DNA from: Terriglobales bacterium
Lineage (GTDB): Bacteria > Acidobacteriota > Terriglobia > Terriglobales > Acidobacteriaceae
Direction of reading: 5' to 3'
Length of the DNA stretch: 51,937 nucleotides
NCBI GenBank assembly: GCA_035543055.1
Contig: DATKKJ010000098.1
Span: 1-51,937, forward strand
Each line of letters begins with the position of its first letter. The first letter of the stretch is position 1. The notes beneath the pieces were generated by a model, which did no database searches, was not told the DNA's origin, and was given only the letters and a program-made list of their open reading frames with translations. Below are positions 4,098-21,836 of the stretch, in pieces. The translations under genes and the position numbers were made by a program.

Positions 4098-6110
4098 TCA
4101 GGAACGGGCCGCGGCGGCGTAATGCGTCGCGTGGCTGCGCTCCTCGCCGAACGGCGCCTGCTTGGAAGCGTGGCGGCCGTGGCCGTTGCTTCCGCTTGCG
4201 GAGGCTTCCAGCGCGAAGCGGTCCATCGCTTCGAGCAGGCTGCGGGCCATCTTCGACATCTGCTCCGCCGAGGCCGCCAGCTCGGTGGAGCTGGAAGTGG
4301 ATTGCTGAGTCAGTTCGCGCATCCGCTCCATGGCTTTGACCACGGCCTGGGCGCCCGAGGCCTGCTCCTCGACCGAGGAGTTGATCTCGTGCGTGATCTC
4401 GTTCAGGCGGGTAGTGGCCTTGGCGATCTGCGAGGAGCCGTGCGACTGCTCGTTGGTGGCCGCGCCGATCTCTTGGGCGAACTTGTACACCTCGGTCACC
4501 ACGTTGGAGATCTTCTTGAGCGCGGCGCTCAGGTCGCTGCCCAGGGTCAGACCGTCGTTGACGATGGCGGTGCTCTTCTCCATGTTGTCCACGGCCTTGC
4601 GCGATTCGTTCTGGATGCTGCGGATCAGGTCGCTGATCTCCTTGGTGGACTGCGCCGATTTCTCCGCCAGTTTGCGGACCTCGTCGGCGACCACGGCGAA
4701 GCCCAGCCCGTGCTCGCCCGCGCGCGCCGCCTCGTTGGCGGCGTTCAGGGCCAGCAGGTTGGTCTGCTCGGCCAGGTCGTCGATGACCTCGATGATCTTG
4801 CCAATGTCGTCGGCGCGCTGTCCCAACACCCCGATGATGCCGGACGAGGTATGGATGGAATCGTTGATCTTGTTCAGCCCCTGGGTGGCCTTGTCCATGG
4901 TGACGATTCCACTCTGCACTTCCTCGCGCGAGCGCTGGGAAATGTCGAGCAGCACCTTGGCGGTGTCGGCCACGCGCTGGATGGAGGCGACCATCTCGTC
5001 GATGGAGGCCGAGGTCTCGCTGACGCTGGAGGCCTGCACTTGGGTGTTCTTCACCATGTTCTGCACATTGATGGACATCTCGTGCATGGTGCTGGTGACC
5101 TCGTCGATCGCCTGCGAGGCCTGGATGCTGACCTTGGCGGATTCCTCGCTGGCGCCGGCCACCTGGTTGGAACCACTGGCGACCTGCGAGGCGCTGTCGC
5201 GCACGCTAGTGACCAGCTTGCGCAGGCCGCCGATCATGCTGGTGAACGCTAACGCGAGCGTGTCCTTGTCGGAACGGGGCTGCACTTCCAGCCCCAGATT
5301 GCCGCCGGCGATGGCCTCGGAAACGGCTGCCATCTCCTTCAGGTAAGTGACCATGCGCTCGAAGGTGCGTGCCAGTTCGCCGATCTCGTCGTTGCGGCTG
5401 ATGTCGACCGACTGGTTCAGGTCGCCGGATTCGCCGATCTGACGGGCTACGGCCATCAGATGCGAGAGCGGATGAGTGATGGACCGCGCCGTGAATACTG
5501 CGACCCCGGCGCCGCAGATGAGCGCCAGCAGCGTGCCCAGGATCGAGACCACCAAGGTGATGGTGGAAGCGGTCTCGTTGAACTTCTGTTGCGATTCCCG
5601 ATTGGCGGCCGTGGCTTGCTTGGCATCGTCGAGGGGCTCAGCGGATTTCCGCAGCCATTCGGTGGGATTCTGCTGCAGATAGAAGATCTGGAGTTCCGCG
5701 ACCGTGGCGTTGCCGCCATCCACGTCTTTGCGCTTGCTGATCATGGCGCCGGCGAACGAGGTCACCCAGCTCTGTTCCGCTTCCTTGACCCGGGTCAGGG
5801 CGGTGCGTTCCCGCTCCGAATCCGCCAGCCTGAGGGCGTGGTTGAGCAGTTCGTTCAGCTTGGAGACGCCTGCGTTCATCTGGTCCAGTTCGCGGGTGTC
5901 ACCGCTGAGCAGGTAATTGCCCAACAGGAGGCGGTTCTGCATCATCTGGAAGCGAACCGCCTCGGTGGCCTGTTCCATCTCCGCCGACCTGGCCGCGGCC
6001 GACCGCGCCGACCGCTCGCGCAGCATCGCCGCCATGCTGAGCAGGAACAGCACCATCACGATGGAAAGGATCGCTCCAAAGCCCACGTATAGTTTCTTGC
6101 GGATACTCAT
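4098..6110 (-). CDS. Methyl-accepting chemotaxis protein with four-helix sensor domain
   Basis: Membrane chemoreceptor of 670 residues. TM1 is at about residues 8-30. A roughly 150-residue, largely helical periplasmic region follows and looks like a four-helix-bundle sensor (CHASE3/4HB type by appearance only). TM2 (STITLVVSILGTLLALICGA) leads into a HAMP domain (ITHPLSHLMAVARQIGESGD), with a possible second HAMP after it. The cytoplasmic signalling tip reads [20 protein letters not shown], with ANEAARAGE in place of the usual AIEAARAGE. The C-terminus has no pentapeptide docking motif. It is the second gene of the sigma-54-driven cluster 1 operon, 27 bp after the TonB-like gene. The ligand cannot be read from the sequence. 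Confidence 0.93.
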   Translation of the reverse strand: MSIRKKLYVGFGAILSIVMVLFLLSMAAMLRERSARSAAARSAEMEQATEAVRFQMMQNRLLLGNYLLSGDTRELDQMNAGVSKLNELLNHALRLADSERERTALTRVKEAEQSWVTSFAGAMISKRKDVDGGNATVAELQIFYLQQNPTEWLRKSAEPLDDAKQATAANRESQQKFNETASTITLVVSILGTLLALICGAGVAVFTARSITHPLSHLMAVARQIGESGDLNQSVDISRNDEIGELARTFERMVTYLKEMAAVSEAIAGGNLGLEVQPRSDKDTLALAFTSMIGGLRKLVTSVRDSASQVASGSNQVAGASEESAKVSIQASQAIDEVTSTMHEMSINVQNMVKNTQVQASSVSETSASIDEMVASIQRVADTAKVLLDISQRSREEVQSGIVTMDKATQGLNKINDSIHTSSGIIGVLGQRADDIGKIIEVIDDLAEQTNLLALNAANEAARAGEHGLGFAVVADEVRKLAEKSAQSTKEISDLIRSIQNESRKAVDNMEKSTAIVNDGLTLGSDLSAALKKISNVVTEVYKFAQEIGAATNEQSHGSSQIAKATTRLNEITHEINSSVEEQASGAQAVVKAMERMRELTQQSTSSSTELAASAEQMSKMARSLLEAMDRFALEASASGSNGHGRHASKQAPFGEERSHATHYAAAARS

Positions 6111-6750: not shown

Positions 6751-6824
6751 GACTCAATTTGAGATTAGACGGTACTTTCGCACCGTCTCAGCACCCAGTC
6801 CGGGTTCCTAAGCGCCGCCACACC

Positions 6825-9659
6825 ATGAGTATCCGCAACGAATCCGCAACCCCGGATACCTCGCCAGGTGTGGACAGTCCTTTCCAAGCTTTGTTGCTCG
6901 AGATCTCTACTGCCTGCCGTGAAGGACGCACCCTGGCGGAGCTGATCTCACTGTTCTGCAAGGCGACGCGGGGGTTCTTCGCCTTGGATGGGGTGTATTA
7001 CTGGAGACTGGCGGACGGGGAGCAGTTGGTCGGCGTGGATGCCGACGGCTTCCAGGCGGAGCGGTTCCGCGCCTCCACCTTGCGCATGAGCGAAAGCGCG
7101 GTCGCGGTGGAGGCGGTCAAGAGCCGGCACACGGTGTATGCGAACCATCTCGACCCGCTGAAATACCCGATGGCGGGGGATTTCCAGGCGAAGTCGTTGA
7201 TGGCGGCGCCACTGATCGTTGGCGGGGATGTGATCGGGGCCATCGTCTTTCTCAGCCGTGACGACGGCGAGCACTTCGATGAAGACTTGGCCGGCAAGGC
7301 CACCATCCTGGCGTCGTACCTGGGCAGCCTGATCGAAACCCTGCAGCGCTCCGAGCGGCACCGCAAGCGCGCCGAGGACCTGATGGCCCTCGCCCTGGAA
7401 TTGAGCGCGTCGTTGCGCTTGCCGGAGTTCGCCCGTAGCTTCACCGAGCGGGTCACCGGGATGTTAGGGGCGCAAGCCGGCGCCCTGGCGCTCTCGCAGG
7501 GCTCCAGCCTGGAGACTATCGTCCTCCATGAGCCGGGCGAGCCCAGCGACAAGGCACAGGTGCGGCGGCTGACTGCGGCTCTGAGCGACGTGGCCGCGGA
7601 ACGCTCCTCCGCCCTGCTGCAGGGCGATGCTGCCCAATTGCTGGGACCGGGCATCGCCGCGGCGTTGGGCTGGCGCGACCTGGTCGTGGTACGGCTGGTG
7701 GGCGCGGATCAGGAGCTGCTGGGGCTGCTCTGCCTGGCGAATCTCGATCACGAGTTGTCCCAGCCCGACCGCAACCTGCTGCAAGCGGTCTCGGCGCACG
7801 CTTCGGTGGCGCTGGAGAACTCGCGCCTGTTCTCCCGCATCGCGCAATCCAACAAGCACTGGGCGGAGATCTTCGATTCCATCACCGACTTCATCGTGGT
7901 GCACGACGACGCCCACCGCGTGTTGCGGGTGAACCTGCCCCTGGCGCAATTCATCGGGGTGCGGCCGGCGGAGCTGATCGGGGTGGGCATGCGCGCCCTG
8001 GTCTCGATCGCCGCCGACGCCGGCGACCAGCCGTGCCCCTTCTGCCGCGTGGGGATGGAGAAGAGCGACGAGTACATCCACCCGGTGCTGGACCGGACGT
8101 ACCTGGTCTCGACCTCGCGGGTGCGGGGAGCGCTGAACGAGGGGTTGCAGACCATCCACGTGCTCAGGGACATCACCGACCGGCGGGAGGCGGAACGGCG
8201 CTATCGCGAGTTGCTGGACAACATCCAGGAAGGCATCTTCTTCTCCACGCCGGAAGGGCACTTCGTCGAGGTCAATGACGCGCTGGTCCGCATGCTCGGC
8301 TATGACAGCCGCGAGCAACTCCTGCAGATCGACATCCGCACCGAGCTCTATCCCGAGCCGGAGCAACGGCGGCGGTTCATCGAGGCCATCGAGAAGCAAG
8401 GCATGGTGCGGAACTTCGAAGAAGCGCTGCGGCGGCGTGACGGCACCCTCGTGCATACCCTGGAGAATGCGTTCGCAGTGCGCGACGCGAAGGGCGTGGT
8501 CATCCAGTATCGCGGGGTGATGCTCGACATCAGTGAAGTCAAGGCCTTCCAGGCGCAGCTGCAGCGGGAGCGCGACTTCAACACCAAGATCCTGAACAAC
8601 ACCCAGAGCATGATCCTGGTAGCGGACACCGCCGGGTTGGTGAGCTACGCCAACCGCCGCTGCTTCGAGCACGGCAATTTTCGCGAAAGCGAGCTGCTCG
8701 GCCATCAACTGCTGGAATTCGTCGCCCCCCAGCGGCGGGAAGCGATGGCCGCGGCTTTCGAAGCCGTCCTGGCCGGCCAGCAAGTGAACAATCTCGAGCT
8801 TCCCATGATGCGGCCGGACGGCAAGCTGTCGCAGTTCTCCATCAATCTCAGCCCCATGCGGGACGAGCGTGGGGAGGTGAACAGCATGGTGGCGGTCATG
8901 ACCGACGTCACCGACGCCGCCATGCTGCAAGGCAAGCTGATGCACGCCGAGAAGATGGCGGCGGTCGGCCAGCTGGTCTCCGGCGTCGCCCACGAGGTCA
9001 ACAACCCGCTGACCGCGATCCTGGGATTCGCCGACCTGCTGCTGGAGCAGGAGGACGTCCCGGAATCGGCGCACAAGAACCTGAAGGTGATCGTGCAGGA
9101 GGCGCAGCGAACCAAGACCATCGTGCAGAACCTGCTCAGCTTCGCGCGGCAGATGCCGGCGGAGCACCGCGCCGTCCAGGTGAACCCGATCCTGCGGCGC
9201 ACCCTGCAACTGCGCGCCTACGACTTCGCCAGCCACGGGGTGGACATCGTGGAGCGGCTACGCGACGGGATGCCGGATATCGTGGGCGACGCCCAGCAAC
9301 TGCAGCAGGTCTTCCTGAACATCATCAACAACGCCTACGACGCGGTGCGGGAGACGGAGCGCCGCGGCACCATCGAGGTGGAGACTTCTTACGTCAACGG
9401 CGGCATCGAGGTCGCGTTCCGCGATAACGGCCGCGGCATCCAGTTCCCGGAGCGCATCTTCGATCCGTTCTTCACCACCAAAGAGGTTGGCAAGGGCACC
9501 GGACTGGGGCTGAGCATCTGTTACGGCATCGTGCGCGAGCACGGAGGCGACATCATCTGCCATAACAATGAGGGCAGGCCGGGGGCCACATTCATCGTAC
9601 GCTTGCCGGCGGCTGCGGGGCCGGCGGCAGTGGCGGCCGCGGCGGGAGCGCAGGCATGA
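6825..9659 (+). CDS. Soluble multi-sensor histidine kinase (GAF-GAF-PAS-PAS-PAS)
   Basis: A 944-residue kinase without any membrane segment, so it senses a cytoplasmic signal. Two GAF-like domains (about 20-350) are followed by three PAS modules (about 350-720). The first PAS carries a Cys pair (DQPCPFCRVGMEK) that could be redox- or metal-sensitive. The H-box is GVAHEVNNPLTAILGFADLL near residue 722, and the ATPase boxes are INNAYDAV, DNGRGI and GTGLGLSI. The start is the ATG at 6825; upstream in-frame codons would lie in the promoter region. Its stop overlaps the next gene as ATGA. It most likely phosphorylates the receiver protein and the NtrC-type activator immediately downstream. Confidence 0.9.
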   Translation: MSIRNESATPDTSPGVDSPFQALLLEISTACREGRTLAELISLFCKATRGFFALDGVYYWRLADGEQLVGVDADGFQAERFRASTLRMSESAVAVEAVKSRHTVYANHLDPLKYPMAGDFQAKSLMAAPLIVGGDVIGAIVFLSRDDGEHFDEDLAGKATILASYLGSLIETLQRSERHRKRAEDLMALALELSASLRLPEFARSFTERVTGMLGAQAGALALSQGSSLETIVLHEPGEPSDKAQVRRLTAALSDVAAERSSALLQGDAAQLLGPGIAAALGWRDLVVVRLVGADQELLGLLCLANLDHELSQPDRNLLQAVSAHASVALENSRLFSRIAQSNKHWAEIFDSITDFIVVHDDAHRVLRVNLPLAQFIGVRPAELIGVGMRALVSIAADAGDQPCPFCRVGMEKSDEYIHPVLDRTYLVSTSRVRGALNEGLQTIHVLRDITDRREAERRYRELLDNIQEGIFFSTPEGHFVEVNDALVRMLGYDSREQLLQIDIRTELYPEPEQRRRFIEAIEKQGMVRNFEEALRRRDGTLVHTLENAFAVRDAKGVVIQYRGVMLDISEVKAFQAQLQRERDFNTKILNNTQSMILVADTAGLVSYANRRCFEHGNFRESELLGHQLLEFVAPQRREAMAAAFEAVLAGQQVNNLELPMMRPDGKLSQFSINLSPMRDERGEVNSMVAVMTDVTDAAMLQGKLMHAEKMAAVGQLVSGVAHEVNNPLTAILGFADLLLEQEDVPESAHKNLKVIVQEAQRTKTIVQNLLSFARQMPAEHRAVQVNPILRRTLQLRAYDFASHGVDIVERLRDGMPDIVGDAQQLQQVFLNIINNAYDAVRETERRGTIEVETSYVNGGIEVAFRDNGRGIQFPERIFDPFFTTKEVGKGTGLGLSICYGIVREHGGDIICHNNEGRPGATFIVRLPAAAGPAAVAAAAGAQA

Positions 9660-10051
9660 GCACCGCGAGTCAGCAGGTCTTGCCCATCCTGGTGATCGAG
9701 GATGAAGCGTCGGTGATGGGCTTCCTGGTGGCCGCGCTGGAGCGCGCCGGCTACCGCACCGCCCAGGCCGCGAGCGGGGCGGATGCCCTGCGCATGCTGG
9801 CGGTCGCCAGTTATCTGGGAGTGGTCTCCGACATGCGCACCCCGGGCGGGGTGAACGGCGCCGATGTCCACGCCTGGCTGGCCGCCAATCGGCCGGAACT
9901 GGTCTCCCGCGTCGTCTTTATCACCGGCGACACGGTCAACGAGGAGACGCAGCAGATTCTCCGCCACACCGGGGCGCCCTGTATCGAGAAGCCGTTCCGG
10001 GTGCAGCAGCTGATCCAGTGCGTGGAAAAGACCATTGGGAAGGCCCGATGA
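9656..10051 (+). CDS. Single-domain response regulator
   Basis: A 131-residue receiver with no output domain. The acidic pair is IEDE near the N-terminus, the phosphoacceptor is in GVVSDMRTPGG, Thr in FITGD and Lys in IEKPF. It sits between the kinase and the sigma-54 activator, with 4-bp ATGA overlaps on both sides, which points to fixed stoichiometry in one operon. It may act as a phosphate sink or as an intermediate that tunes phosphotransfer to the activator. Receiver identity is clear; that role is inference. Confidence 0.9.
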   Translation: MSTASQQVLPILVIEDEASVMGFLVAALERAGYRTAQAASGADALRMLAVASYLGVVSDMRTPGGVNGADVHAWLAANRPELVSRVVFITGDTVNEETQQILRHTGAPCIEKPFRVQQLIQCVEKTIGKAR

Positions 10052-11478
10052 CCGACGACTACCGCATCAAGTTCCTGATCGTGGACGACGAGCAGAGCAT
10101 CCGCAAGCTGTGCATGACCATCGGCGCTTCGCTGGGCTTCGACTGCACCGAGGCGGAGAGCGGTGAGGCCGCCCTGGTACAGCTGGAAGCCGAGTGCCCC
10201 GACATCCTGATCGCCGACCTGATGCTGCCCAAGATGAGCGGCGTGGAGCTGTTGCAGCAGGTCAAGAACCTGCAGCCCGGTTGCGAGGTGGCCATCATGA
10301 CCGGCCACGGCTCCATCGAGAGCGCGGTGCAGGCTATGAAACTGGGCGCGTACCACTACATCCAGAAGCCGTTCCGGGTGGAAGAGGTCAAACTCATCCT
10401 GCAGCGCATGGCGGAGAAGGTACGCCTGGTAGCCGAACGCGATTTTCTGCGCGACCGGCTGAGCACGGAGAGCCAGCTCAATGACATCACCGGCTCGTCG
10501 GCCAAGATCCAGGATGTGCTGCGCATGATCGCCCGCCTGAAGGACACCCGCACCCCGGTGCTCATCACCGGGGAGAGCGGAACGGGCAAGGAGTTGGTGG
10601 CGCGCGCCATTCACTTCCGCGGGTCCTTCGCCAAGCGTCCCTTCGTCGCGGTGGATTGCGGCGCCCTGGTGCCCACGCTGATCGAGAGCGAGCTGTTCGG
10701 CTATGAGAAGGGCGCCTTCACCGGGGCGCTCAAGTCGAAGCACGGGCTCTTCCAGGCGGCCAACGGCGGCACCATCTTCCTGGACGAGATCGGCGAGCTG
10801 CCGCAGGAGATGCAGGCCAAACTTCTGCGCGTGCTGCAAGAGAAAGAGGTCCGACCGGTGGGCAGCAACGATCGGCAGAAGGTGGACGTGCGGGTGATCG
10901 CAGCCACCAACCGCGACCTGGAGGCAGCCTACAAGGCCGGCACCTTCCGCAAGGACCTTTTCTTCCGCCTCAATGTGGTGACCATCCACCTGCCGCCGCT
11001 AAGGGAGCGGAAGTCGGACATCCCCAGCCTAGTGCGGTGCTTCCTGCTGGACCATTCACCCGACACCCCCATCCAGGTGATGCCCGAAGTGCTGCGCTGC
11101 CTGCTGCGGTATGACTGGCCGGGGAACGTGCGCGAGTTGCAGAACTGCATCGAGCGGGCGATCGCCTTGGGGAACAAGCAGACCATCGACATCGCCGACC
11201 TGCCGCCGGCCATACGGGAAGCTCGCGCCGGGGCGCCTGCGGTCTTCGAAACCGAGGCCATCCCTGAGCACGATGGGGAAGCGGCCTCGGGATCGGCAAC
11301 CGACCTGGAAGATATCGAACGCATGACCATCCAGCGCGTCTTCGAACAGGTGGGCGGCGACAAGGCGCTGGCTGGCAAGATGTTGGGCATCAGCCGGGCA
11401 ACGCTCTACCGAAAGCTCAAGCGCTACAACATCAGCCTGGAGCGCGCCAAGGGCGTTGGCGCTACCTCTGAAGGGTAG
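10048..11478 (+). CDS. NtrC-family sigma-54-dependent transcriptional activator
   Basis: A 476-residue enhancer-binding protein. The receiver (1-120) has LIVDDEQSIRK and the phosphoacceptor in ILIADLMLPKMSG. The AAA+ domain has Walker A GESGTGKE (near residue 174), the sigma-54 contact loop GAFTGA (near 221) and Walker B GGTIFLDEIGEL. The C-terminal Fis-type helix-turn-helix reads GKMLGISRATLYRKLKRYNI. The GAFTGA loop is intact, so it should drive sigma-54 RNA polymerase. Sigma-54 promoters precede cluster 1, the next operon and cluster 2, all within a few kb, making these its most likely targets. The ATG at 10048 overlaps the receiver stop. Confidence 0.95.
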   Translation: MTDDYRIKFLIVDDEQSIRKLCMTIGASLGFDCTEAESGEAALVQLEAECPDILIADLMLPKMSGVELLQQVKNLQPGCEVAIMTGHGSIESAVQAMKLGAYHYIQKPFRVEEVKLILQRMAEKVRLVAERDFLRDRLSTESQLNDITGSSAKIQDVLRMIARLKDTRTPVLITGESGTGKELVARAIHFRGSFAKRPFVAVDCGALVPTLIESELFGYEKGAFTGALKSKHGLFQAANGGTIFLDEIGELPQEMQAKLLRVLQEKEVRPVGSNDRQKVDVRVIAATNRDLEAAYKAGTFRKDLFFRLNVVTIHLPPLRERKSDIPSLVRCFLLDHSPDTPIQVMPEVLRCLLRYDWPGNVRELQNCIERAIALGNKQTIDIADLPPAIREARAGAPAVFETEAIPEHDGEAASGSATDLEDIERMTIQRVFEQVGGDKALAGKMLGISRATLYRKLKRYNISLERAKGVGATSEG

Positions 11479-11545: not shown

Positions 11546-11615
11546 TTCCGCTAAGCACCGAGCGAAGCCTTCTGATTTTTCAAGAACTTACGACTTCTGG
11601 TGTGGCCTGAATCTT

Positions 11616-11631
11616 TGGCCGTCGTCGTGCA
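11616..11631 (+). promoter_or_regulatory. Sigma-54 promoter of the three-gene operon
   Basis: TGGCCGTCGTCGTGCA has GG-N10-GC spacing; the -12 box is GTGCA rather than TTGCA. The flanking sequence strongly resembles the cluster 2 promoter: both have TGGCCG, then TGCACTTC and TCTGCG at matching positions. The expected transcript start is near 11643, which rules out the GTG at 11600 as the start of the following gene. Confidence 0.7.
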
Positions 11632-11677
11632 CTTCCACTCTGCGAATCGAAGTGGCTTTCCGCCCGAAGGCTGGGCG

Positions 11678-12031
11678 GTGCGAGGTCATGTGGCGCAAAA
11701 GGCCGTCATTTCTCCGTGGGCAGAGGAACAGTCGGACGTGGCCAGGCTGGCGGGGTTCTTTCCCGCGGCTACCGCCATCCGGGTGCCGGTGCGGGTGGGT
11801 CGCATCGAGGGTGACGAAGAAGAAGAGACGGTCATTGAGTTCGGCACTCCGCGAGAGGTCTTGTTCGCCGCCAGGCTGCCGCTGGAGTTCGGCGATCGCA
11901 TCCGGCTGGTGAATGCGGAGGGGCTGCTGGAGGCGGAAGCCGAAGTTGTCGCTGTGCAATACCACGAGGGCAAGACCGCAGTCGCTGCCCGCTTTATCGG
12001 GCCGGTTGCGAATTGGGTCATTCGAAAATGA
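11678..12031 (+). CDS. Small PilZ-like domain protein (degenerate)
   Basis: About 117 residues. The core (FPAATAIRVPVRVGRI, PREVLFAARLPLEFGDRIRL, EAEAEVVAVQYHEGKTAVAA) resembles the beta-barrel of PilZ proteins, in which a strand is followed by a distance-controlled second motif. However, the c-di-GMP-binding RxxxR and D/NxSxxG motifs are not evident, so binding is doubtful. The start is uncertain: GTG at 11678 has AAGG 7 nt upstream; GTG at 11690 is an alternative; the frame extends up to 11600 but that lies before the predicted transcript start. It overlaps the next gene as ATGA and is first in a sigma-54-driven operon. PilZ assignment is tentative. Confidence 0.6.
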   Translation: MRGHVAQKAVISPWAEEQSDVARLAGFFPAATAIRVPVRVGRIEGDEEEETVIEFGTPREVLFAARLPLEFGDRIRLVNAEGLLEAEAEVVAVQYHEGKTAVAARFIGPVANWVIRK

Positions 12032-13452
12032 GCACCGCCACCATGTCATTGCGCGAGATCGCCGCCCAATGGCGAGCGGACCGCCGCATTTATCCCATCT
12101 ACGCCAGCATCGTGCGCCAGTTCGAACTCGGGATCGAGCCCTGCCGCGACCTGGAATCTCCGATCGACCGCAACGACCCCGAGGTCCTGGAGAAGATCGC
12201 TGCCTGGTTCGACGCCGTGGACGCGCGCAGCCATGCAGGACACCTGCGCCAGGCGCTGCAGACCGCCAAGGTCGCCAAGGAAGACAACTTGAGGGCGCTG
12301 CTGGGACGCTTTCTCGGCAAGGAAAAGAAAAGCCCCGCCGACCGTGACAAGGTGGATTTCCTGCTGGTCCAGTACTTCTCCCAGTGTGCTCCCCACTCCA
12401 TGCACGATCGCGAACTGGAGCTCGACGACATCGCCCAGGTGCTGGAGCCGGTGCTGGGCGAGACGGTCCCCCATCAGCCGCGCTGGCTCGAAGTGCTCGA
12501 TGGCGAACTGGCGAGACTGAAGGAATGCAAGACGTTCCACGAGCTGTTGGAGAAGGGAATCCTGGCGCACGTCCGCCAGCTCAAGGAAGAGGCCGGGGAG
12601 ATGTATTTCGGCTCGGGGGCTATGCTGGCCTTTACCCGATTCAATTTTGTCGCCCGGCATGCCTTCTTCCGGCTCCTGCATGCGGACCTGGGAACCATGC
12701 GTCACGCGCTGCACGAACTCGAGAAGCGGGGTATCAAGCACTTGGATTGCCGGGCCGCGGGACTCTCGGACAAGGAGCCGCTGAACAACGTGGCGGCGAT
12801 CTGGCACGACTGGAAGACCCCGTTCCGGGCGCCCTACGCGGCAGGTCAGCCGTTCGAGCGCATGATGAAGGTTGCGCGCATCGTGGAGCAGGAGGCCACA
12901 AAGCCTGTGCCCGCACCACAGCCGGCGCCCGAGCCGCCAAAAGCAACCGCAGCGCCGAAGCCGGCCGCTGAGAAAGCGAAGCCCGCGCCGCTACCCGCAG
13001 TGGCGAAACCATCCCCCGCTCCGACCAAGGCGGAAACTCAGCCAGTGATGGATGTGCAGTCCTGCCTGGAGCACATCGCCGAACAACTCATCGGCGAGGT
13101 GCAGGCGACGCCCACCTCGGTGGCCACCATCCACTACCACGATTCGAAGGTCCTGCTTTCCTCGTGGGAAGTGGCGGCATTCACCAAGGGTGGCAATGAC
13201 GCCGCCGACGCGCTGCAACGCGCGGTGGCCGGCCGGACCATCCTGCTGGAAGCGGTCGAACGGAAGAAGAAGGGTGTTCCGGCGGCCGATCTGCCGGAGG
13301 CGACCAAGCTGGCCCACGCCGAGGTCGCACTCCTGCAGGAGAGCATCGCGAAGGCCAAGGAGCGCAAAGACATCGACGCGGCGGTGAACCTGGCCGCGAC
13401 TTGCAAGCGGATGCTGGGGCTGATCGAGGAAGCGGAGAAGCTGAGCCGTTAG
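12028..13452 (+). CDS. Conserved-looking hypothetical protein, 474 aa
   Basis: I do not recognise a family. The N-terminal part (about 1-300) is a mostly helical globular domain (LREIAAQWRADRRIYPIYAS, ARHAFFRLLHADLGTMRHAL) with scattered Cys residues. A Pro/Ala/Lys-rich linker spans roughly 300-345. The C-terminal part is again helical, with a strand-like segment (SVATIHYHDSKVLLSSWEVA) and a charged amphipathic tail. No signal peptide or membrane segment is seen, so it is probably cytoplasmic. It is coupled by ATGA to the PilZ-like gene and followed 12 bp later by the phosphotransferase-like gene. Its place between two chemosensory clusters under a sigma-54 promoter suggests a signalling adaptor or scaffold, but this is inference from context only. 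Confidence 0.75.
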   Translation: MSTATMSLREIAAQWRADRRIYPIYASIVRQFELGIEPCRDLESPIDRNDPEVLEKIAAWFDAVDARSHAGHLRQALQTAKVAKEDNLRALLGRFLGKEKKSPADRDKVDFLLVQYFSQCAPHSMHDRELELDDIAQVLEPVLGETVPHQPRWLEVLDGELARLKECKTFHELLEKGILAHVRQLKEEAGEMYFGSGAMLAFTRFNFVARHAFFRLLHADLGTMRHALHELEKRGIKHLDCRAAGLSDKEPLNNVAAIWHDWKTPFRAPYAAGQPFERMMKVARIVEQEATKPVPAPQPAPEPPKATAAPKPAAEKAKPAPLPAVAKPSPAPTKAETQPVMDVQSCLEHIAEQLIGEVQATPTSVATIHYHDSKVLLSSWEVAAFTKGGNDAADALQRAVAGRTILLEAVERKKKGVPAADLPEATKLAHAEVALLQESIAKAKERKDIDAAVNLAATCKRMLGLIEEAEKLSR

Positions 13453-13464
13453 GGAGAGATTGAC

Positions 13465-14142
13465 GTGGACAATGTTCTGATCATCGCGGACGACGCCGAT
13501 TTCACCCGCAGTCTGGTCGGTCGCTGGCAGATGGAGCGCGCCGTGCCGACCTTCACCCAGGTGACCAGCGAACTGTGGACGCCGTCTGTGCAGGCGGGCT
13601 ATCCGCTCACCGTGATCGGCCCGATTGCGCCGGCGCGCCTGGATAGCATCCTCAGCAGCCTGGAGGCGTATCACGCGCTGGGGATCTGCGTCACCGATGA
13701 CGGCAGCCGGGTGCAGGGGATCCGCACCGCCCATCCCCGTATCCTGGTGTTCCGCCAGTACGACGGTTGGGTGGATACGCTGGTGCTCCTGGCCGCCGAG
13801 ATGCTCAAGCGCGTCGATGTCCTCTCGCAGTTGCGGCGTGCCGAACAGGCCGCGGCCAGCGACCATCGCCATGCCACCCTCGGCCGCTACATCCTGGAGA
13901 TGCGGCACAGTTTCAACAACGCCCTCACCTCCGTGCTGGGCAATGCCGAATTGCTGCTGCTGGAACCGGGAGCGGTGTCGGCGCAGGTGCGCGAGCAGAT
14001 CGACACCATCCACAGCATGGCGCTACGCATGCACGAAATCATGCAGCGGCTGTCCTCGCTGGAAGCGGAGATGAACTGCACTGAGAAATTCTCTCAAAAT
14101 GAGACGTCGCCCTCGTCTCAGGCCTATGCCATCCGTTTCTAG
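13465..14142 (+). CDS. Pseudo-receiver fused to a His phosphotransfer (DHp) helix pair, no ATPase
   Basis: A 225-residue protein. The first 120 residues look like a receiver fold (VLIIADDADFTRS, ILVFRQYDG) but lack the central phosphoacceptor Asp: the equivalent strand reads YPLTVIGPIAP. Residues 130-205 form a histidine kinase dimerisation helix pair with H-box EMRHSFNNALTSVLGNAELL (His near residue 148). No ATP-binding domain follows; the frame stops after a short Ser/Thr/Asn-rich tail. This matches the layout of phosphotransferases such as Spo0B and ChpT, which lack kinase activity. GTG start at 13465 with GGGAGA upstream. The last 20 codons contain the activator block for the next promoter, so coding and control overlap. 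It could relay phosphate between the island's kinases and receivers. Confidence 0.75.
   Translation: MDNVLIIADDADFTRSLVGRWQMERAVPTFTQVTSELWTPSVQAGYPLTVIGPIAPARLDSILSSLEAYHALGICVTDDGSRVQGIRTAHPRILVFRQYDGWVDTLVLLAAEMLKRVDVLSQLRRAEQAAASDHRHATLGRYILEMRHSFNNALTSVLGNAELLLLEPGAVSAQVREQIDTIHSMALRMHEIMQRLSSLEAEMNCTEKFSQNETSPSSQAYAIRF
14081..14118 (+). promoter_or_regulatory. Upstream activator block within the end of the preceding gene
   Basis: Alternating half-sites TGAGA (14082), TCTCA (14092), TGAGACG (14100) and CGTCTCA (14114-14120). TCTCA-N3-TGAGA at 14092-14104 is a perfect dyad. The block has the same architecture as 11508-11545 and lies 141 bp from the -24 promoter start at 14222. It sits inside the coding end of the phosphotransferase-like gene. 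A similar GAGACG palindrome occurs in dispersed repeats of this genome, which is the main alternative explanation. Confidence 0.6.
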
Positions 14143-14275: not shown

Positions 14276-14638
14276 GTGAAGAAGATCCTGATCGTGGACG
14301 ATTCGCAGTCGGAGGCCAAGGTGATGCAGTCGGTGCTCCAGCAGGCAGGCTACTGGCCGGTGGCCATCCACGATTCCACCAAGATCGAGCAGACCATCGA
14401 CGTGGAGCGTCCGGCGCTGATCCTGCTGGATGTGGTGATGCCGCAGCGCAATGGCTTTCAGGCGTGCCGCGAGTTGAAGGGAAGCGCCGAGTACGGCCGC
14501 ATCCCCATCGTCCTGGTGACGTCGAAGAGCAGCGACAGCGACAAGTTCTGGGGCCAGCAGCAAGGGGCCGATGGGTACGTGGTCAAGCCCTTCACCCCGG
14601 CGCAGCTCCTGGTGGCGGTCCAGAAGTTCGTAGGCTGA
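14276..14638 (+). CDS. CheY-like response regulator (PilG/PilH position)
   Basis: A 120-residue receiver: LIVDDSQSEAK, phosphoacceptor in LILLDVVMPQRNG, Thr in VLVTSK and Lys in VVKPFTP. GTG at 14276 is chosen because TGAGG lies 8 nt upstream and the predicted transcript starts near 14249; the frame extends to 14192 but that is upstream of the promoter. It heads a cluster whose order matches the Pseudomonas pil-chp genes, where PilG/PilH are the output regulators for type IV pili. No pilus genes are in the window, so the output is not shown. Confidence 0.92.
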   Translation: MKKILIVDDSQSEAKVMQSVLQQAGYWPVAIHDSTKIEQTIDVERPALILLDVVMPQRNGFQACRELKGSAEYGRIPIVLVTSKSSDSDKFWGQQQGADGYVVKPFTPAQLLVAVQKFVG

Positions 14639-15163
14639 GTGAAGATGGCGGAGAACCCACAACTCGAACCGCAAGCGCAGCCGGCGGAAACCGCTGAACC
14701 ACAGGTTGCGCCAGAGGAGCAACTGCCCGAGTCGCAGTACTGCATCTTTCGGGCAGGGCGGGAGCGCTTCTCTCTGTCCGTGCTGGACGTCGAGGAAGTG
14801 GTGGAATGGCCGGCGGTGACGCGCATGCCGCTGTCGCCGGCGTTCCTGATGGGAATCTTCAACCTGCGCGGTTCCATCGTGCCGGTGATCGACATCGCCT
14901 TCACCGAAGGCCGGCGTCCGGACCTGCCCCCCAAGCACGTCGTGGTCGGCGTGCTGAAGGGAGATGGCGAGCGCGACGACCTGCGTTTGGGCATCGCCGC
15001 CGACGAAGTCATCGGGACTTACAGCACCAGCGAATCGCTCCTGGTGGACGAGGCCCCGAAGGATGTGCCGCACTGCTGCGGCATGCTGCGCCACGACGAT
15101 CGTCTGGCGCTGCACCTGGATTTGAAGAAAGTCACCGAGACGTTCCCCGTCCCGGTGATCTAG
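14639..15163 (+). CDS. cheW: CheW-like adaptor (PilI position)
   Basis: A 174-residue CheW with a 30-residue N-terminal tail rich in Glu, Gln and Pro, followed by the conserved fold: YCIFRAGRERFSLSVLDVEE, LSPAFLMGIFNLRGSIVPVI and GIAADEVIGTYS. Start at GTG 14639, directly after the TGA of the receiver gene, or ATG 14645. It should link the receptor at 15206 to the CheA at 17545. The stop codon at 15161-15163 lies at the beginning of a 7-bp-period repeat tract. Confidence 0.92.
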   Translation: MKMAENPQLEPQAQPAETAEPQVAPEEQLPESQYCIFRAGRERFSLSVLDVEEVVEWPAVTRMPLSPAFLMGIFNLRGSIVPVIDIAFTEGRRPDLPPKHVVVGVLKGDGERDDLRLGIAADEVIGTYSTSESLLVDEAPKDVPHCCGMLRHDDRLALHLDLKKVTETFPVPVI

Positions 15164-15190
15164 CCGGCAGCTAGGAGCTAGCCGCCGGTT
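15161..15190. repeat. 7-bp-period repeat tract overlapping a stop codon
   Basis: Degenerate heptamers TAGCCGG, CAGCTAG, GAGCTAG, CCGCCGG begin at the cheW stop codon. The same period occurs at six other loci in the window (24409, 26476, 35033, 36709, 45531, 47085). It lies in the 42-bp gap before the receptor gene. Confidence 0.6.
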
Positions 15191-15205
15191 GTACTTGGAG
15201 GCCGT

Positions 15206-16642
15206 ATGAAAGGTCGAGTGAATTCGACGATCTGGATGCTGGTCCTGGTGAACGTGGTCGCCATGGCCGCGATGCTGGGGCTGGGCTACGGAGCCGGAGC
15301 CTGGGCCAAGGGCCTGCCCATCCTGGACGCGGTGAGCGCGTCCAGCCAGGCGGGCATGCGCCTGCTGGGCGGGCTGCTGGTGCTCTTCATCGCCGCGGGC
15401 ATCACGTTCATCGTGCTGGGCAGCAAGGTGTCCAAGCCGGTGAAGGAGCTGACGGAGTTCTCCGAGCGTCTGGCGGCGGGCGATTACCGCGCCTCGGCCG
15501 ACATCGACTCGCAGGACGACTTCGGCTTCATCGCCCAGAACATGAACCGCACCGCGGAGAAGATCTCCAAAACGGTCTTCCACCAGGAGGCGCAGGAGAA
15601 CCTGCAGCGCTCGGTGACCGACTTCCTGACCATCGTCAGCCAGATCGCGCGCGGCGACCTGACCCTGCGCGGCAAGGTCACCAACGATGCGCTGGGCAAC
15701 GTGGTGGACTCGGTCAACTACATGCTCGACAACTTCACCAAGGTGCTGGAGCGCGTGCGCAAGGGCGCCCTCGACGTCTCCAGCAGCTCCAACCAGATCC
15801 TGGTGGCCTCCGAGCAGATGCTCAATGGCGCGGTGCAGCAGGACCAGGAGATCACCAACACCTCGTCGGCGGTGGAAGAGCTGACGGTGTCGATGAAGCA
15901 GGTGTCGAACAACGCCGAGGCGAGCGCCGAAGCCGCCCGCCGCGCGCTGGACGCCGCCGAGCAGGGCAACCGCGCGGTGCGCGACACGCTGGACGGCATG
16001 CAGCGCATCCGGGCGTCGGTGCAGGCCACGGCCAAGAAGATCAAGTCGCTGGGCGACCGCTCGCTGGAGATCAGCGAGATCATCAGCGTCATCAACGACA
16101 TCACCGAGCAGACCAACCTGCTGGCGCTCAACGCCGCCATCGAAGCGGCGCGCGCCGGCGAGGCCGGTCGCGGGTTCGCGGTGGTTGCCGACGAAGTCCG
16201 CAAGCTGGCCGAGCACTCGCGCAACGCCACCAAGGACATCGCCGCCCTGATCAAGGCCATCCAGGCGGAAACCAACGAGGCCGTGGTGGTCATGGAGGAG
16301 GGCACCAAGGAAGTGGAAGTCGGCGCCCGCCTGGCCGACCAGGCCGGCAAGGCGCTGGAAGCCATTTCGTCCGTCGTCCGCCAGTCGGCCGAGCTGGTGC
16401 AGGAGATCTCACTGGCTTCGAAGCAGCAGGTGCGCGGCACCGAAGGCGTGGCCAACGCCATGCAGATCATCTCCAACATCACGCGCCAGACCTCGCAGGG
16501 CGCCCGCCAGACGGCGCGCACCGTCGAAGAGCTGGTGAAGCTCTCCGAGCAATTGAACGAGGCCCTGTCGCAGTTCCGCGTCAGCACGGCCGCGGGTCCG
16601 GTCGAAGTGAAAGAACTCTCGGCCGCCATCAGCCGCCGGTAA
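15206..16642 (+). CDS. Methyl-accepting chemotaxis protein with minimal periplasmic loop
   Basis: A 478-residue receptor. TM1 covers about 8-30 and TM2 about 50-72, leaving only some 20 residues between them, so there is no room for a periplasmic ligand domain. A HAMP-like segment ([20 protein letters not shown]) and a second HAMP-like region ([20 protein letters not shown]) precede the signalling hairpin, whose tip is [20 protein letters not shown]. No C-terminal pentapeptide is seen. PilJ of Pseudomonas, which holds this position, has a larger periplasmic part. This receptor may sense membrane state, the cytoplasm or a partner protein. Start ATG 15206 with TTGGAGG upstream. Confidence 0.93.
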
Positions 16643-16666
16643 ACCGAGGACAGGCGGGAAGGTCCC

Positions 16667-17548
16667 ATGGTGGAGAGGAACCAGGGCACGGTCAGCAGCC
16701 ACGAGTTGTCGGAGATCCGCGCGCTCATCGAGCAGCGCTCGGGCATCCACTTCGACGACTCGCGCGAGCGCTTTCTCATCGCCCGCGTGCGCGAGCACAT
16801 GAGCGACAAGCGCATGCTGCACGGGACCGACCTGATGCGCCTCATCCGCGGCTCCAACGTGGAATACGACGCCCTGGTGGAGCGGCTGCTCACCCAGGAA
16901 ACCTCCTTCTTCCGCTATCCCGCCGTGTTCGCCGCGCTAGAGCGCAAGGTACTGCCCGAACTGCACATGAAGAAGTTCTGGGAGAACCCGCGCAGCCTGC
17001 GCATCTGGTCGGCGGGTTGCGCTTCCGGCGAAGAGCCCTATTCCGTCGCTATCACCCTGGCGGAGTCGCTGGAATTCGCCGACGCCTGGAACATCCACAT
17101 CCTGGCCACCGATATCAGCAAGCAGGCGCTGCAGCATGCCGAGCGCGGTGTCTACCCCCGGCGCGAGCTGGCCAGCCTCGACCTGCGGCAGCTGGAGAAC
17201 TATTTCGTGCGGGTGGGCGACCAGTTCATGGTCAAGCCCCGCATCCGCAACATGGTCAGCTTCGCCCCGGTGAACCTGGCCAACGGCGTGTACATGGGAC
17301 GGTTCGACTGCATCTTCTGCATGAACGTCCTGATCTACTTCACCGAGGAGCGGCGCTCACAGGTCATCCAGCGCTTCTACGATTACCTCGAGCCCGGCGG
17401 TTATCTGTTCCTCGGCCACTCCGAGTCGGTGGCGCGGCTGCCGGTGAACTTCGAGACCACCGTGGCCGGCGACTGCCTCCTCTACCAGAGGCCCAACAGC
17501 AGCGTTGCGCGGCGCTCCAACGCAGCCGCTGCCCGGGAGAGCCTATGA
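16667..17548 (+). CDS. cheR: CheR-type methyltransferase (PilK position)
   Basis: A 293-residue chemoreceptor methyltransferase. N-terminal helical domain (ALIEQRSGIHFDDSRERFLI), then the SAM-binding motif IWSAGCASGEEPYSVAI, ILATDISKQAL and CIFCMNVLIYFTEERRSQVI. The C-terminal GYLFLGHSESVARLP is conserved in the family. It lies 24 bp after the receptor gene and overlaps the CheA start by 4 bp (ATGA). It is distinct in sequence from the CheR of cluster 1, so each array has its own adaptation enzyme pair. Confidence 0.94.
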   Translation: MVERNQGTVSSHELSEIRALIEQRSGIHFDDSRERFLIARVREHMSDKRMLHGTDLMRLIRGSNVEYDALVERLLTQETSFFRYPAVFAALERKVLPELHMKKFWENPRSLRIWSAGCASGEEPYSVAITLAESLEFADAWNIHILATDISKQALQHAERGVYPRRELASLDLRQLENYFVRVGDQFMVKPRIRNMVSFAPVNLANGVYMGRFDCIFCMNVLIYFTEERRSQVIQRFYDYLEPGGYLFLGHSESVARLPVNFETTVAGDCLLYQRPNSSVARRSNAAAARESL

Positions 17549-20500
17549 GCGCCCCGGGCCAGGATTTCGTCGAAGTCTTCCTCCAGGAAGCGTCCGAGCA
17601 CCTGCAGTTCCTGCGGGAGTACTCGGGGCTGCTGTTGGACCCTTATCCGGCGGCCGACGACTTGGACCGCCTGTACGTTTCCGCCCACACCCTGGGCGGC
17701 GCCTCGGCGATGTACGGCTTCCCGCTGTTCTCGGAGATCGCGGGCAAGCTGGCGCACATCTTCCAGTACGCGATGAATGCGACCATCGGAGCGGAAGCGG
17801 CCCCTCCGCTGGTCGAATTCATCTCGGAAGCGGTGGCGGTACTGGAGTCGGACCTGCTGATGATCAGCGCCACCGGAGGCGAAGCCGCCGAAGACATCAC
17901 CGCCTTCAAGCAGAAGTATCCCTTCGCCTTCACCGGGCCCACGCCGGAGGAGCGAGAGAAGGAAGCGGCGCTGGAAGCGGCGGCGTCGGTCGAGCATCCG
18001 GCAGCGGCTCCGGAACCGCCGCCGCAGTTCGCCGAGCTGCCCCAGGACGGCGATGTGCCGCCCGAGATCCTCGAGTTCTTCGTGCCCGAGGCGGAAGAGC
18101 ACCTGCAAGTCGTCACCGATTGCCTGCTCTCCCTCGAAACCAATCCGAATCCCGAAGAGATCCACCGCCTGTTCCGGGCCATGCACACCATCAAGGGGTC
18201 GGCGGCACAGGTGGGGCTGCACCGCATCGCGCATGTCGCCCACCGGGCCGAGGACCTGGTGGGACGCCTGCGCGACGGTGAGCTGATGCCTTCCGCCCAG
18301 ATCGTGGACATCTGCCTGGAAGCGGTGGACACGCTCAAGAAGTTCCTCTACCGCCAGTGGCCTGACGACCAGGCGATGCAGTCGGCGGTGACGTCGCTGC
18401 TGACCCGCATCGCGCACCTGGCGCCGGAAGAGAGGGAACCTGCTGTCGCGGCAGCCGTGCCCACGCAGGTAGCCGAGACCTTGGTAGAGACGCCACTTGG
18501 GACGTCTTCTGAGACGCAGCAAGCTGCGTCTCTACCAGAACTTGCCGCCGAAGCCCAGACCCTTGCCGCTCAGGCCGCCGAACTCTCGCAAGAGCTGGAA
18601 GCCGCGCGCGCCCAGACCCAGGCCCTCCGTGCCGAGCTTGTGGAAGCCGCCAGGCCGGAGCCGGCAGTCGAATCCAAGGAAGCGGAGGCCGAGGCGGCCA
18701 AGAAAGAGCCCGCGGGCGTGCCGCAGTCCAAGTCCGTCCGCATCGCTCTGGAGCGCCTGGACCGCATGATGAATGCGGTCGGCGAACTGGTCATCAACCG
18801 TACCCGCATGGTGGGACGTCTCAACGAACTGGAGAAGCTGGCCGACGTGCTGAACTTCTCCAAGGCCCGCATGTCCGACAAGGTCGCCGAATTCCAGGAG
18901 AAGTACGAGTTCGGCCGCCTGGCGAGCGGCAACTTCGCTCCCACCCCGAAGCACGTCGATCCGTACCCGTTCTCCGGGGGCTACTCCAGCTATTCTCATT
19001 CCTTCGATCCCGCGCTGGCCGAGTTCAGCGAGCTGGAGATGGACCGCTACGACGACTTCAACATCCTCTCGCGCTCGCTGACCGAGATCTCCGCCGACAT
19101 CACCGAGGTGCTGACCCAGCTCGACGGCTTCGTGCGCCGCGTGGATTCCGACATCGACGAGTTCACCAAGCTGGCCCACCGCCTGCAGGATGAGATCACC
19201 CAGGCCCGCATGGTACCCATTGGCAACCTCTACACCCGCCTGACCCGCACCGTGCGCGACGCCGCCAAGGCCGCGGGCAAGCATGTGGAGCTCACCCTGG
19301 CCGGGGCCGAGACTGAGCTCGACAACAACATCATCCAGCAGATCTCCGACCCGCTCATCCACCTGGTGCGCAACGCGGTGGCCCACGGCATCGAGCGTCA
19401 CGACGACCGCTACGCCGCCGGCAAGCCTGACCAGGGCAACGTCGCGGTTCGCGCCTACCACCGCGGCAATCACATCTACATCGAGGTCGAGGACGACGGG
19501 CGGGGCATCGACTACGAGAAGGTCCGCAGCACCGCGGTCGAGAATAGCCTGGTCAGCGCGGAAGACGCTGCCAAGCTGGGCGAGCGCGACCTGCTCGAAC
19601 TCCTCTTCCACCCCGGCTTCTCAACCGCGCCGCGCAAGACGGAACTCGCCGGCCGCGGCGTCGGCCTGGACGTGGTGCGGGCCAACCTTTCGCAGCTGAA
19701 TGGCGAGATCGAGATCGAGACCCAGAAGGGAGTGGGCTCGCGCTTCACCCTCAAGGTCCCGCTCACCCTCATCATTTCCCAGGCGCTGTTCGTGCGCTGC
19801 GGCGAGAGCGTGTTCGCCCTGCCTTTGGCCTTCGTCGAAGAGATCCGCCGCCTGAAGGAGTCGGACATCGAGGAAGTCGGTGGCAAGCTGCTGACCAAGG
19901 TGCGCGACGTGGTCACCGAGGTGGTCCGGCTCGACCAGTCGCTCGGCCTGGAACGCGTCGAGCCGGTCAACGGCTACTACCGGCTGGTGATCGTCAATGT
20001 CGCAGGGCGGCAGGTTGGCGTGGTGGTCGAAGAGGTCATCCGCAAGGACGAGATCGTCATCAAGAGCCTGGGCGAGTACATGCGCAATGTGAAGCTGTTC
20101 CCCGGGGCCACCATCGCGCCCGACGGCAGCCTCATCCTGCTGATCGACGTCAACCGCCTGGTCGCCGGCGAATCCATCGAGCGGCGGCCGCTGATGACCA
20201 GCGCCACCGCGGCCCGCATCTTCGCTCCCGGCGCCGCCGCCGTGGCCCGCGGCGAGATCCCGGCGGAAGCCATCGACCAAGTGGCGCCCGAGAAAGTCGT
20301 CGTGCTGGCGGACGATTCCATCAGCGTCCGCAAGTTCGTGGGCCGCATGCTGGAGAAGGCCGGCTACCGCGTGCGCCTGGCGGCCGACGGTCTCGAGGCG
20401 TTAGAGATCGCAACCCAGAATCGCTGCGACCTGGTGATCACCGACCTGGAGATGCCGCGCACCAACGGCTACGAGCTGATGACCCACCTGCGGCAGCAAC

Positions 20501-20697
20501 CCGAGACCCGCTCCCTCCCGGTCATGGTGGTGACCTCGCGCGCCGGCGTCAAGCATCGCGAGCGCGCGCTCAAGGAAGGCGCATCGGCGTTCCTGACCAA
20601 GCCGGTGCAGGAAGACCAGTTCATTGCGGCGGTGGCGCAGCTGATCGGCAGCGCCGCCCCCGTGCACAAAGACGCTGCGGCCGAGACGGTGCCCTGA
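17545..20697 (+). CDS. cheA: CheA-type hybrid kinase with two HPt domains and a receiver (ChpA-like)
   Basis: A 1050-residue hybrid kinase. HPt1 near residue 49 (SAHTLGGASAMYG) deviates from the usual HTLKG. HPt2 near residue 214 is canonical (AMHTIKGSAAQVG). An Ala/Glu-rich coiled coil (about 320-395) follows, then a dimerisation domain with a long insert, the ATPase domain (HLVRNAVAHGIE, DDGRGIDYE, AGRGVGLDVV), a CheW domain and a C-terminal receiver (VLADDSISVRK, phosphoacceptor in VITDLEMPRTNG). Two HPt domains plus a receiver resemble ChpA/PilL, which has more HPt copies. The ATG at 17545 overlaps the CheR stop. A palindromic repeat is embedded in frame at 18483-18536. Confidence 0.94.
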   Translation: MSAPGQDFVEVFLQEASEHLQFLREYSGLLLDPYPAADDLDRLYVSAHTLGGASAMYGFPLFSEIAGKLAHIFQYAMNATIGAEAAPPLVEFISEAVAVLESDLLMISATGGEAAEDITAFKQKYPFAFTGPTPEEREKEAALEAAASVEHPAAAPEPPPQFAELPQDGDVPPEILEFFVPEAEEHLQVVTDCLLSLETNPNPEEIHRLFRAMHTIKGSAAQVGLHRIAHVAHRAEDLVGRLRDGELMPSAQIVDICLEAVDTLKKFLYRQWPDDQAMQSAVTSLLTRIAHLAPEEREPAVAAAVPTQVAETLVETPLGTSSETQQAASLPELAAEAQTLAAQAAELSQELEAARAQTQALRAELVEAARPEPAVESKEAEAEAAKKEPAGVPQSKSVRIALERLDRMMNAVGELVINRTRMVGRLNELEKLADVLNFSKARMSDKVAEFQEKYEFGRLASGNFAPTPKHVDPYPFSGGYSSYSHSFDPALAEFSELEMDRYDDFNILSRSLTEISADITEVLTQLDGFVRRVDSDIDEFTKLAHRLQDEITQARMVPIGNLYTRLTRTVRDAAKAAGKHVELTLAGAETELDNNIIQQISDPLIHLVRNAVAHGIERHDDRYAAGKPDQGNVAVRAYHRGNHIYIEVEDDGRGIDYEKVRSTAVENSLVSAEDAAKLGERDLLELLFHPGFSTAPRKTELAGRGVGLDVVRANLSQLNGEIEIETQKGVGSRFTLKVPLTLIISQALFVRCGESVFALPLAFVEEIRRLKESDIEEVGGKLLTKVRDVVTEVVRLDQSLGLERVEPVNGYYRLVIVNVAGRQVGVVVEEVIRKDEIVIKSLGEYMRNVKLFPGATIAPDGSLILLIDVNRLVAGESIERRPLMTSATAARIFAPGAAAVARGEIPAEAIDQVAPEKVVVLADDSISVRKFVGRMLEKAGYRVRLAADGLEALEIATQNRCDLVITDLEMPRTNGYELMTHLRQQPETRSLPVMVVTSRAGVKHRERALKEGASAFLTKPVQEDQFIAAVAQLIGSAAPVHKDAAAETVP
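18483..18536. repeat. REP-like palindrome inside the cheA coding region
   Basis: GGTAGAGACGC at 18483-18493 is mirrored by GCGTCTCTACC at 18526-18536, and a perfect 10-bp stem with a 2-nt loop lies within it (18511-18520/18523-18532). The same GTAGAGACGC core forms dispersed palindromes at 28107 and 50025. Here it stays in frame within the linker after HPt2, so the protein tolerates it. Confidence 0.7.
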
Positions 20698-20699
20698 TC

Positions 20700-21836
20700 A
20701 TGGCAGGCAAACGAATCCGGGTGTTGATCGTGGACGATTCGGCGTTCATGCGCAAGGTGCTGCAAAGCATCCTGACCGCCGAGCCCGACATGGAAGTGTG
20801 CGGGGAAGCGCGCGACGGGCGCGAAGCCTTGGCCCAGAGCGATGCCCTGTCTCCCGACGTCATCACCATGGACATTAACATGCCGCACATGGACGGGCTC
20901 CAGGCCACCGAGCTCATCATGTCGCAGAAGCCGCGGCCCATCCTGATCGTCAGCTCGGAGTCGCGCGAAGGCGCCGACACCACCCTCAAGGCGCTGGAGC
21001 TCGGGGCCATCGATTTCGTTGCCAAGCCCTCGGCCGGCGTGGACCTGGACATGAATTCGGTGCGCGCGGAATTGACCCGCAAGCTCAAGATGGCGGCCAA
21101 AGTGCGCGTGGTGCGCACCGCGGTGCGCAGCAAGCTCCAGCAAGAGATCGCGACCTCGGCGCCGCGGGTCGAGCCGGCGCCCATGCCACCGCGCCCGGCC
21201 CCGACCACTCCCGGGGCGGCGCTGGTCAGCCGGGCCAACGGCAAGTTCCCGGTCGTGGTCATTGCCTCCTCCACCGGCGGGCCCGCGACCCTGATGAAGT
21301 TCGTCCCTATGTTCCCCAAGGACTTTCCCGGCACTGTCATCTTGGTGCAGCACATGCCGGGGACCTTTACCTCGCAGTTCGCGCAGCAGTTGGGCGAGAT
21401 CGCGCAGATCAAGGTCAAGGACGCGGAGCAGGGCGAGATCCTGCAGCCCTCGACCTTCTACGTCTGTCCGGGCTCGCACCACCTGCGCATCACGCCCACC
21501 GGGCGCATCACCCTGGACAATGGCCCGCGCATCACCGGCTACCGGCCCTGCGCCGACGTTTCCATGGAGACGGCTGCCGCATTCGCCGGTCCCATGAGCA
21601 TCGCCGTCGTGCTCACCGGCATGGGCAATGACGCCTCCCTGGGCGTGCAGAAAGTGAAGGCCGCCGGCGGCCACGTGATCGCCCAGGACGAAAGCACCTC
21701 CGTGATCTTCGGCATGAACGCGGAAGCCATCAAGACCGGCTGCGTGGACCAGGTGCTCCCCTTGGACAATGTCTTTGCCGCCATCGAGAAGCGCGTGCTG
21801 TACGTTTTCGGCGCCGCGCGGGTAGGTGCCCTGTGA
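20700..21836 (+). CDS. cheB: CheB chemotaxis methylesterase (ChpB position)
   Basis: A complete CheB of 378 residues. The receiver has VLIVDDSAFMRK, phosphoacceptor in VITMDINMPHMDG and Lys in FVAKPS. A Pro/Ala linker leads to the catalytic domain with Ser in VVIASSTGGPATL, His in LVQHMPGTFTSQF and Asp in VLTGMGNDASLG, the complete triad known for the family. It starts 2 bp after the CheA stop. Together with the CheR at 16667 it should set the methylation state of the receptor at 15206. Confidence 0.95.
   Translation: MAGKRIRVLIVDDSAFMRKVLQSILTAEPDMEVCGEARDGREALAQSDALSPDVITMDINMPHMDGLQATELIMSQKPRPILIVSSESREGADTTLKALELGAIDFVAKPSAGVDLDMNSVRAELTRKLKMAAKVRVVRTAVRSKLQQEIATSAPRVEPAPMPPRPAPTTPGAALVSRANGKFPVVVIASSTGGPATLMKFVPMFPKDFPGTVILVQHMPGTFTSQFAQQLGEIAQIKVKDAEQGEILQPSTFYVCPGSHHLRITPTGRITLDNGPRITGYRPCADVSMETAAAFAGPMSIAVVLTGMGNDASLGVQKVKAAGGHVIAQDESTSVIFGMNAEAIKTGCVDQVLPLDNVFAAIEKRVLYVFGAARVGAL

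Follow-up and report, generated by a model that had tools for sequence, protein, structure and literature searches.

Gene Q (13465 to 14142, forward strand; GTG start, 225 amino acids) lies in a 51,937-nucleotide stretch of Terriglobales DNA, referred to here in its entirety as the window, and is built from sensor-kinase leftovers: a dead receiver and a docking hairpin, with no ATP domain. Its residue signature would make it kinase minus and phosphatase permissive, with the caveat of an alanine at H+5. We tentatively favor a role in which Q lowers the phosphorylated form of a neighboring stand-alone receiver, RR1 (RR1~P), by the transmitter phosphatase chemistry of HisKA domains. Q probably serves this one receiver, without an obligatory histidine relay among the receivers of the surrounding island.

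The architecture of Q, a pseudo-receiver followed by a HisKA/DHp hairpin without an ATPase domain, is confirmed. Residues 1 to 120 (13465 to 13824) make up the receiver-like part and residues 121 to 210 (13825 to 14094) the hairpin, within which Pfam places HisKA at residues 145 to 199 (28.3 bits versus a curated cutoff of 26.9). A HATPase domain was not matched by Pfam in Q, and the frame ends at residue 225, so the original prediction was correct that an ATP-binding domain is missing. An AlphaFold2 model, with only 4 sequences in its alignment and a mean pLDDT of 73.7, has an alternating beta/alpha domain at residues 3 to 97, followed by long helices at residues 102 to 166 and 173 to 210. 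The hairpin ends at about residue 210, pLDDT falls below 50 over residues 209 to 225, and a C-terminal (degenerate CA-like) domain of the Spo0B/ChpT type is absent from the 225-residue model. The DHp fold is assigned from the Pfam HisKA match and the two predicted long helices; because the matches of the fold search were filled by receiver structures, that search is no independent confirmation of it. A PDB sequence search with Q alone returned only sub-significant HisKA matches, RetS among them (E value of about 0.4), an NCBIfam search gave nothing close to any cutoff, and no match to Q was found in a plasmid collection. About 85 full-length orthologues were recovered, all within one family of Acidobacteriota, and the architecture is therefore not a product of chance. 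All other readable HisKA proteins of the same genome have a downstream ATPase domain except for one 127-amino-acid open reading frame near a contig end (G000:C8:30949-31107, in L140), where the HisKA domain (VHDLKNPL) stands without one.

A receiver-like domain in front of the DHp was likewise anticipated, and the predicted fold agrees: the first domain of Q matches receiver structures in VIA-align with Z scores of up to 14.6 (rmsd of 2.3, 131 residues aligned), despite the lack of a Pfam Response_reg match in Q. The anticipated loss of the phosphoacceptor Asp is also seen. Position 52 (codon 13618 to 13620) is Gly in Q and in 48 of the 62 aligned orthologues, with Asp in 7, Ala in 4, and Asn, Ile, and Val in 1 each. 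Asp at this position occurs in orthologues from genera g17 and g25 (L048, L049, L050, L051, L053, L094-L099, and L101), most others having Gly. The first acidic-pocket residue of the pseudo-receiver is often missing in g17, and several members of that genus have charged low-complexity insertions nearby. A tie between the gain of Asp52 in some g17 and g25 members and the loss of the hairpin histidine was considered and rejected, as His-bearing g17 members also have Asp52.

The hairpin of Q retains His148 (13906 to 13908), the would-be phospho-acceptor, within the motif EMRHSFNN, as had been claimed, but by the standards of a kinase the H-box is not intact: two positions near the histidine depart from that description. 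H+1, which is Glu or Asp in kinases, is Ser149 (13909 to 13911) in Q and nonacidic in 61 of 62 orthologues (Ser in 18, Gly in 17, Asn in 16, Thr in 7, Ala in 3, and Asp in 1), while H+5, usually proline, is Ala. An acidic H+1 is found in 23 of the 24 other HisKA domains of the same genome. As a paired control, the sensor kinase of the same locus reads HEVNN in 29 of 30 loci and HELNN in one, with Glu at H+1 throughout, under a search pattern that demanded H and left E free. Asn152 (H+4; 13918 to 13920), by contrast with H+1, never varies across the 62 orthologues, nor across the 20 sequences from g17. These two positions separate the activities of CrdS and three other HisKA kinases, in which kinase activity alone depends on the H+1 acid and phosphatase activity alone on the H+4 Asn/Thr; CrdS H371A still dephosphorylates CrdA~P, with a half-life of 2.6 min versus 0.7 min for the wild type and 53.5 min without CrdS (PMC3510030). 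Judging from its residues, Q cannot autophosphorylate, having neither an ATP domain nor an H+1 acid, and the near absence of that acid alongside an invariant H+4 Asn speaks for a phosphatase. The Ala at H+5 may speak against one, given that phosphatase activity is markedly reduced in CrdS P376A, which is altered at the H+5 proline.

His148 itself is kept in 57 of 62 orthologues and so matters in most lineages. This weighs against a phosphatase for which the histidine would be dispensable and suits a narrower relay in which phosphate would pass from the sensor kinase (HK) to RR1, then to His148 of Q, and on to the NtrC-type regulator of the same locus, in the manner of Spo0F-Spo0B-Spo0A or SdrG-PhyT-PhyR, with the histidine later lost in g17. 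Six positions of the Q H-box match Spo0B, for which the letters were checked: R(-1), H, N(+4), L(+6), G(+11), and N(+12). R(-1) and N(+12) occur in 0 of the 24 other HisKA domains of the genome. PhyT offers a precedent for passing phosphate via a single-domain regulator: it has a degenerate ATPase domain, was once held to be a phosphatase, and was later shown to transfer phosphate between PhyR and a single-domain regulator, a history that also cautions against our preferred reading. However, Q does not have the H+1 acid that Spo0B keeps as Asp, and its Spo0B-like H-box is a resemblance, not proof of descent. For this and for the reasons given below, we regard such a relay as rather unlikely.

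The conservation of His148 breaks down in genus g17, where Thr, Ser, or Ile replaces it in 16 of the 20 species read. On a g17 tree of Q and its upstream neighbor U, with motif columns excluded, these replacements fall into two losses, one in a Ser pair and one in a Thr/Ile clade of 13. A missing phospho-His is rare among HisKA domains, at 0.9% of 76,471 sampled (PMC12632262). Asn151 and Asn152 are retained in 20 of 20 g17 sequences, and the His-less hairpins also retain NNALT and G-N. Compared pairwise, the 16 hairpins without the His have a median dN/dS of about 0.1, and they are therefore under purifying selection. An internal stop codon was flagged within the matched region of three g17 loci, and the two His-less orthologues that were scanned gave no Pfam match at an E value of ≤0.01. 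Since the histidine was lost twice while the hairpin stayed under purifying selection, phosphate relay via His148 cannot be the obligatory function of the Q family, although it can be a lineage-specific use. The original prediction named a histidine not conserved among orthologues as one outcome that would refute it, and g17 shows this in part. Both losses, with the two asparagines kept, would be in line with phosphatase chemistry. They also offer a direct test of what remains in a DHp that has neither the His nor an ATP domain, replaced as the histidine was twice inside one genus with the rest of the hairpin kept. We asked whether the receiver Asp of RR1 or NtrC was lost wherever Q lost its His, and it was not: the receiver residues of both are kept in nearly all loci read, whether or not Q has its His, with deviations in NtrC in L129 and L130 and in RR1 in L122 and L124. 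Most genomes read retain the RR1 set E/D-D-D-T-K, and the same is true of most of those without the His. Receivers with their catalytic residues in place are what a relay would require, but the histidine was lost twice even though RR1, NtrC, and HK are intact in nearly all of these loci.

The genes upstream of Q, all on the forward strand, are HK (GAF, PAS, HisKA, and HATPase domains; 6759 to 9659, exact start uncertain), RR1 (9656 to 10051), the NtrC-type regulator (REC, sigma-54 AAA+, and Fis HTH domains; 10048 to 11478), a small uncharacterized protein without a Pfam match (11600 to 12031), and, directly before Q, the uncharacterized protein U, with no Pfam family above the cutoff (12028 to 13452). 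The chemotaxis island downstream of Q begins with RR2 (14276 to 14638, forward strand). The HK-RR1-NtrC-U-Q block lies between two separate chemotaxis gene sets, at 1 to 6110 and 14276 to 24322 of the window, which are on opposite strands. We compared gene content across 37 genomes picked by the presence or absence of Q (21 carriers and 16 noncarriers), which are related to one another, so that the counts are not independent. Of the 21 carriers, 19 have an NtrC orthologue (at least 66% identity) and 10 have an RR2 orthologue; none of the 16 noncarriers has the NtrC orthologue. Some carriers have no chemotaxis island after Q; at one locus (L043), Q adjoins uvrB, which in the window lies past the chemotaxis island, and the downstream set between them is missing. 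The receiver at 23543, also of the island, turned up nowhere but beside it. On this gene content, RR2 and the chemotaxis CheA were rejected as partners of Q; RR2 is probably not an obligatory partner. The proposal that Q passes phosphate among the many receivers of the island is thus not supported, the conserved companion being RR1 with HK and NtrC.

The two exceptions to the NtrC pattern belong to genus g25, where HK, U, and NtrC are gone, apart from an NtrC fragment in one genome, and where a recognizable RR1 (41 to 44%) and Q are still adjacent. Since RR1 and Q alone persist side by side there, we infer that RR1 is the smallest common partner of Q. This adjacency and the NtrC distribution argue for RR1; the assignment draws on gene content only, a point against our preferred reading. 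The g25 loci also bear on two of its competitors. They keep Q without an intact NtrC acceptor at the locus, which is a further difficulty for the relay through His148. They are equally awkward for a RetS-like inhibitor, in which a DHp heterodimer of Q and HK would block autophosphorylation of the neighboring sensor kinase. Q constantly co-occurs with the HK-RR1-NtrC system, and RetS does block GacS autophosphorylation (PMC5992135), but both g25 loci retain Q and RR1 without the kinase, and we consider inhibition of this kind improbable.

The small protein at 11600 to 12031 accompanies U and Q in many genomes. At one locus (L051), the small protein, U, and Q occur together, with no RR1, NtrC of the same system, or chemotaxis genes alongside. 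An AlphaFold2 model of U is poor (pLDDT of 55) and gives no clue. The position of U directly upstream of Q in most carriers would suit a pure reader or adaptor, in which Q would bind RR1~P and signal on via its pseudo-receiver or U without any chemistry. DivL is a precedent for such a protein: its His is lost, it can do without kinase activity, it is no phosphatase, and its DHp binds DivK~P (PMC4211667); Q likewise has a dispensable His and a conserved docking helix. Nevertheless, a U orthologue is found in 15 of 21 carriers and is missing in 6, and the invariance of Asn152 is not something that a reader needs, although DHp structure alone could explain it. We think it unlikely that Q is a reader of this kind.

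In the mechanism that we favor, the hairpin of Q would dimerize into the usual four-helix bundle and dock on RR1, the stand-alone receiver of the HK-RR1-NtrC system. Asn152 would then place the attacking water for dephosphorylation of RR1~P, with His148 helpful yet dispensable, and the pseudo-receiver in front might serve as a phosphorylation-independent input or binding surface that tunes this dephosphorylation. A closely related mechanism, which needs no change in architecture, is that Q would act as a reader of RR1~P, in the way of DivL with DivK~P. Precedents point in both directions. The HisKA protein RetS acts as a transmitter phosphatase despite being kinase-dead (PMC5992135), which by analogy supports the phosphatase. 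For the EnvZ DHp by itself, phosphatase activity was reported (Zhu 2000, as cited in PMC8971529), while none was seen in mammalian cells (PMC8971529), and this result, like the binding of DivK~P by DivL without phosphatase activity, would count against it.

The best profile match outside the family of Q is an ATPase-less GAF-GAF-PAS-DHp-receiver protein (L090/L160, family f62), in which the DHp is fused straight to a receiver. The window receivers closest to that receiver are RR1 and NtrC, nearly tied, and the fusion may be taken as further support for RR1 as the partner of Q. A search with the DHp of this relative recovered PAS-DHp proteins from one family and short ATPase-less DHps of ~100 to 140 amino acids from another; in both, the His is preceded by R and followed by E/D. 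Elsewhere in the phylum, ATPase-less DHps with R before the His occur in families f23 (L161, L163, L165, L170, and L172), f28 (L166 and L169), and f62, in designs that comprise a short coiled coil plus DHp, PAS plus DHp, and GAF-GAF-PAS-DHp-REC. In the surroundings that were read, the small ATPase-less DHps from these other families have no receivers beside them; these are unlinked singletons and therefore give no clue to a partner. We put forward, as a tentative proposal, that Q and its relatives belong to an unrecognized group of DHp regulators in Acidobacteriota that stand alone: docking hairpins separated from the kinase, whose phospho-His has become optional. The attached domain is a pseudo-receiver in the Q family and a PAS domain, short coiled coil, or receiver in the others, and the proteins would erase or read phosphate on single-domain receivers. 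Small proteins annotated as histidine kinases can be non-kinases, and such annotations call for caution.

Q resembles several known systems in part. With Spo0B it shares a DHp-type hairpin, the pattern R-H-x-x-x-N-x-L, G-N at H+11/+12, and a likely single-domain receiver as partner. In Spo0B, a C-terminal domain follows the hairpin. Q, in contrast, has no C-terminal domain, carries an N-terminal pseudo-receiver, and has lost the His in some species. The suggestion that Q is a Spo0B/ChpT-like phosphotransferase therefore stands as far as several H-box positions are concerned but is undercut by the two g17 lineages without the His and by the missing C-terminal CA-like domain. ChpT and PhyT are, like Q, DHp proteins without a working ATPase that stand beside a single-domain regulator, although both keep a degenerate CA fold and Q does not. 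DivL, a Caulobacter pseudo-kinase, has a replaceable phospho-His and a DHp that docks on a single-domain regulator, as proposed for Q, but also PAS domains and a CA domain, neither of which Q has. RetS is similarly a kinase-dead HisKA protein, and it acts on another two-component system; unlike Q, it carries receiver domains as well as a degenerate HATPase domain, and its motif is HExxT. Thus, the known pseudo-kinases compared here retain a CA domain or a remnant of it, whereas Q has none. In the HisKA transmitter phosphatases, represented by the K-P+ mutants of CrdS and HK853 (PMC3510030), we find the same H+4 Asn, absence of an H+1 acid, and lack of a strict requirement for the His. Compared with these mutants, Q has no CA domain and no H+5 proline, uses a pseudo-receiver in place of a sensor, and is a natural protein.
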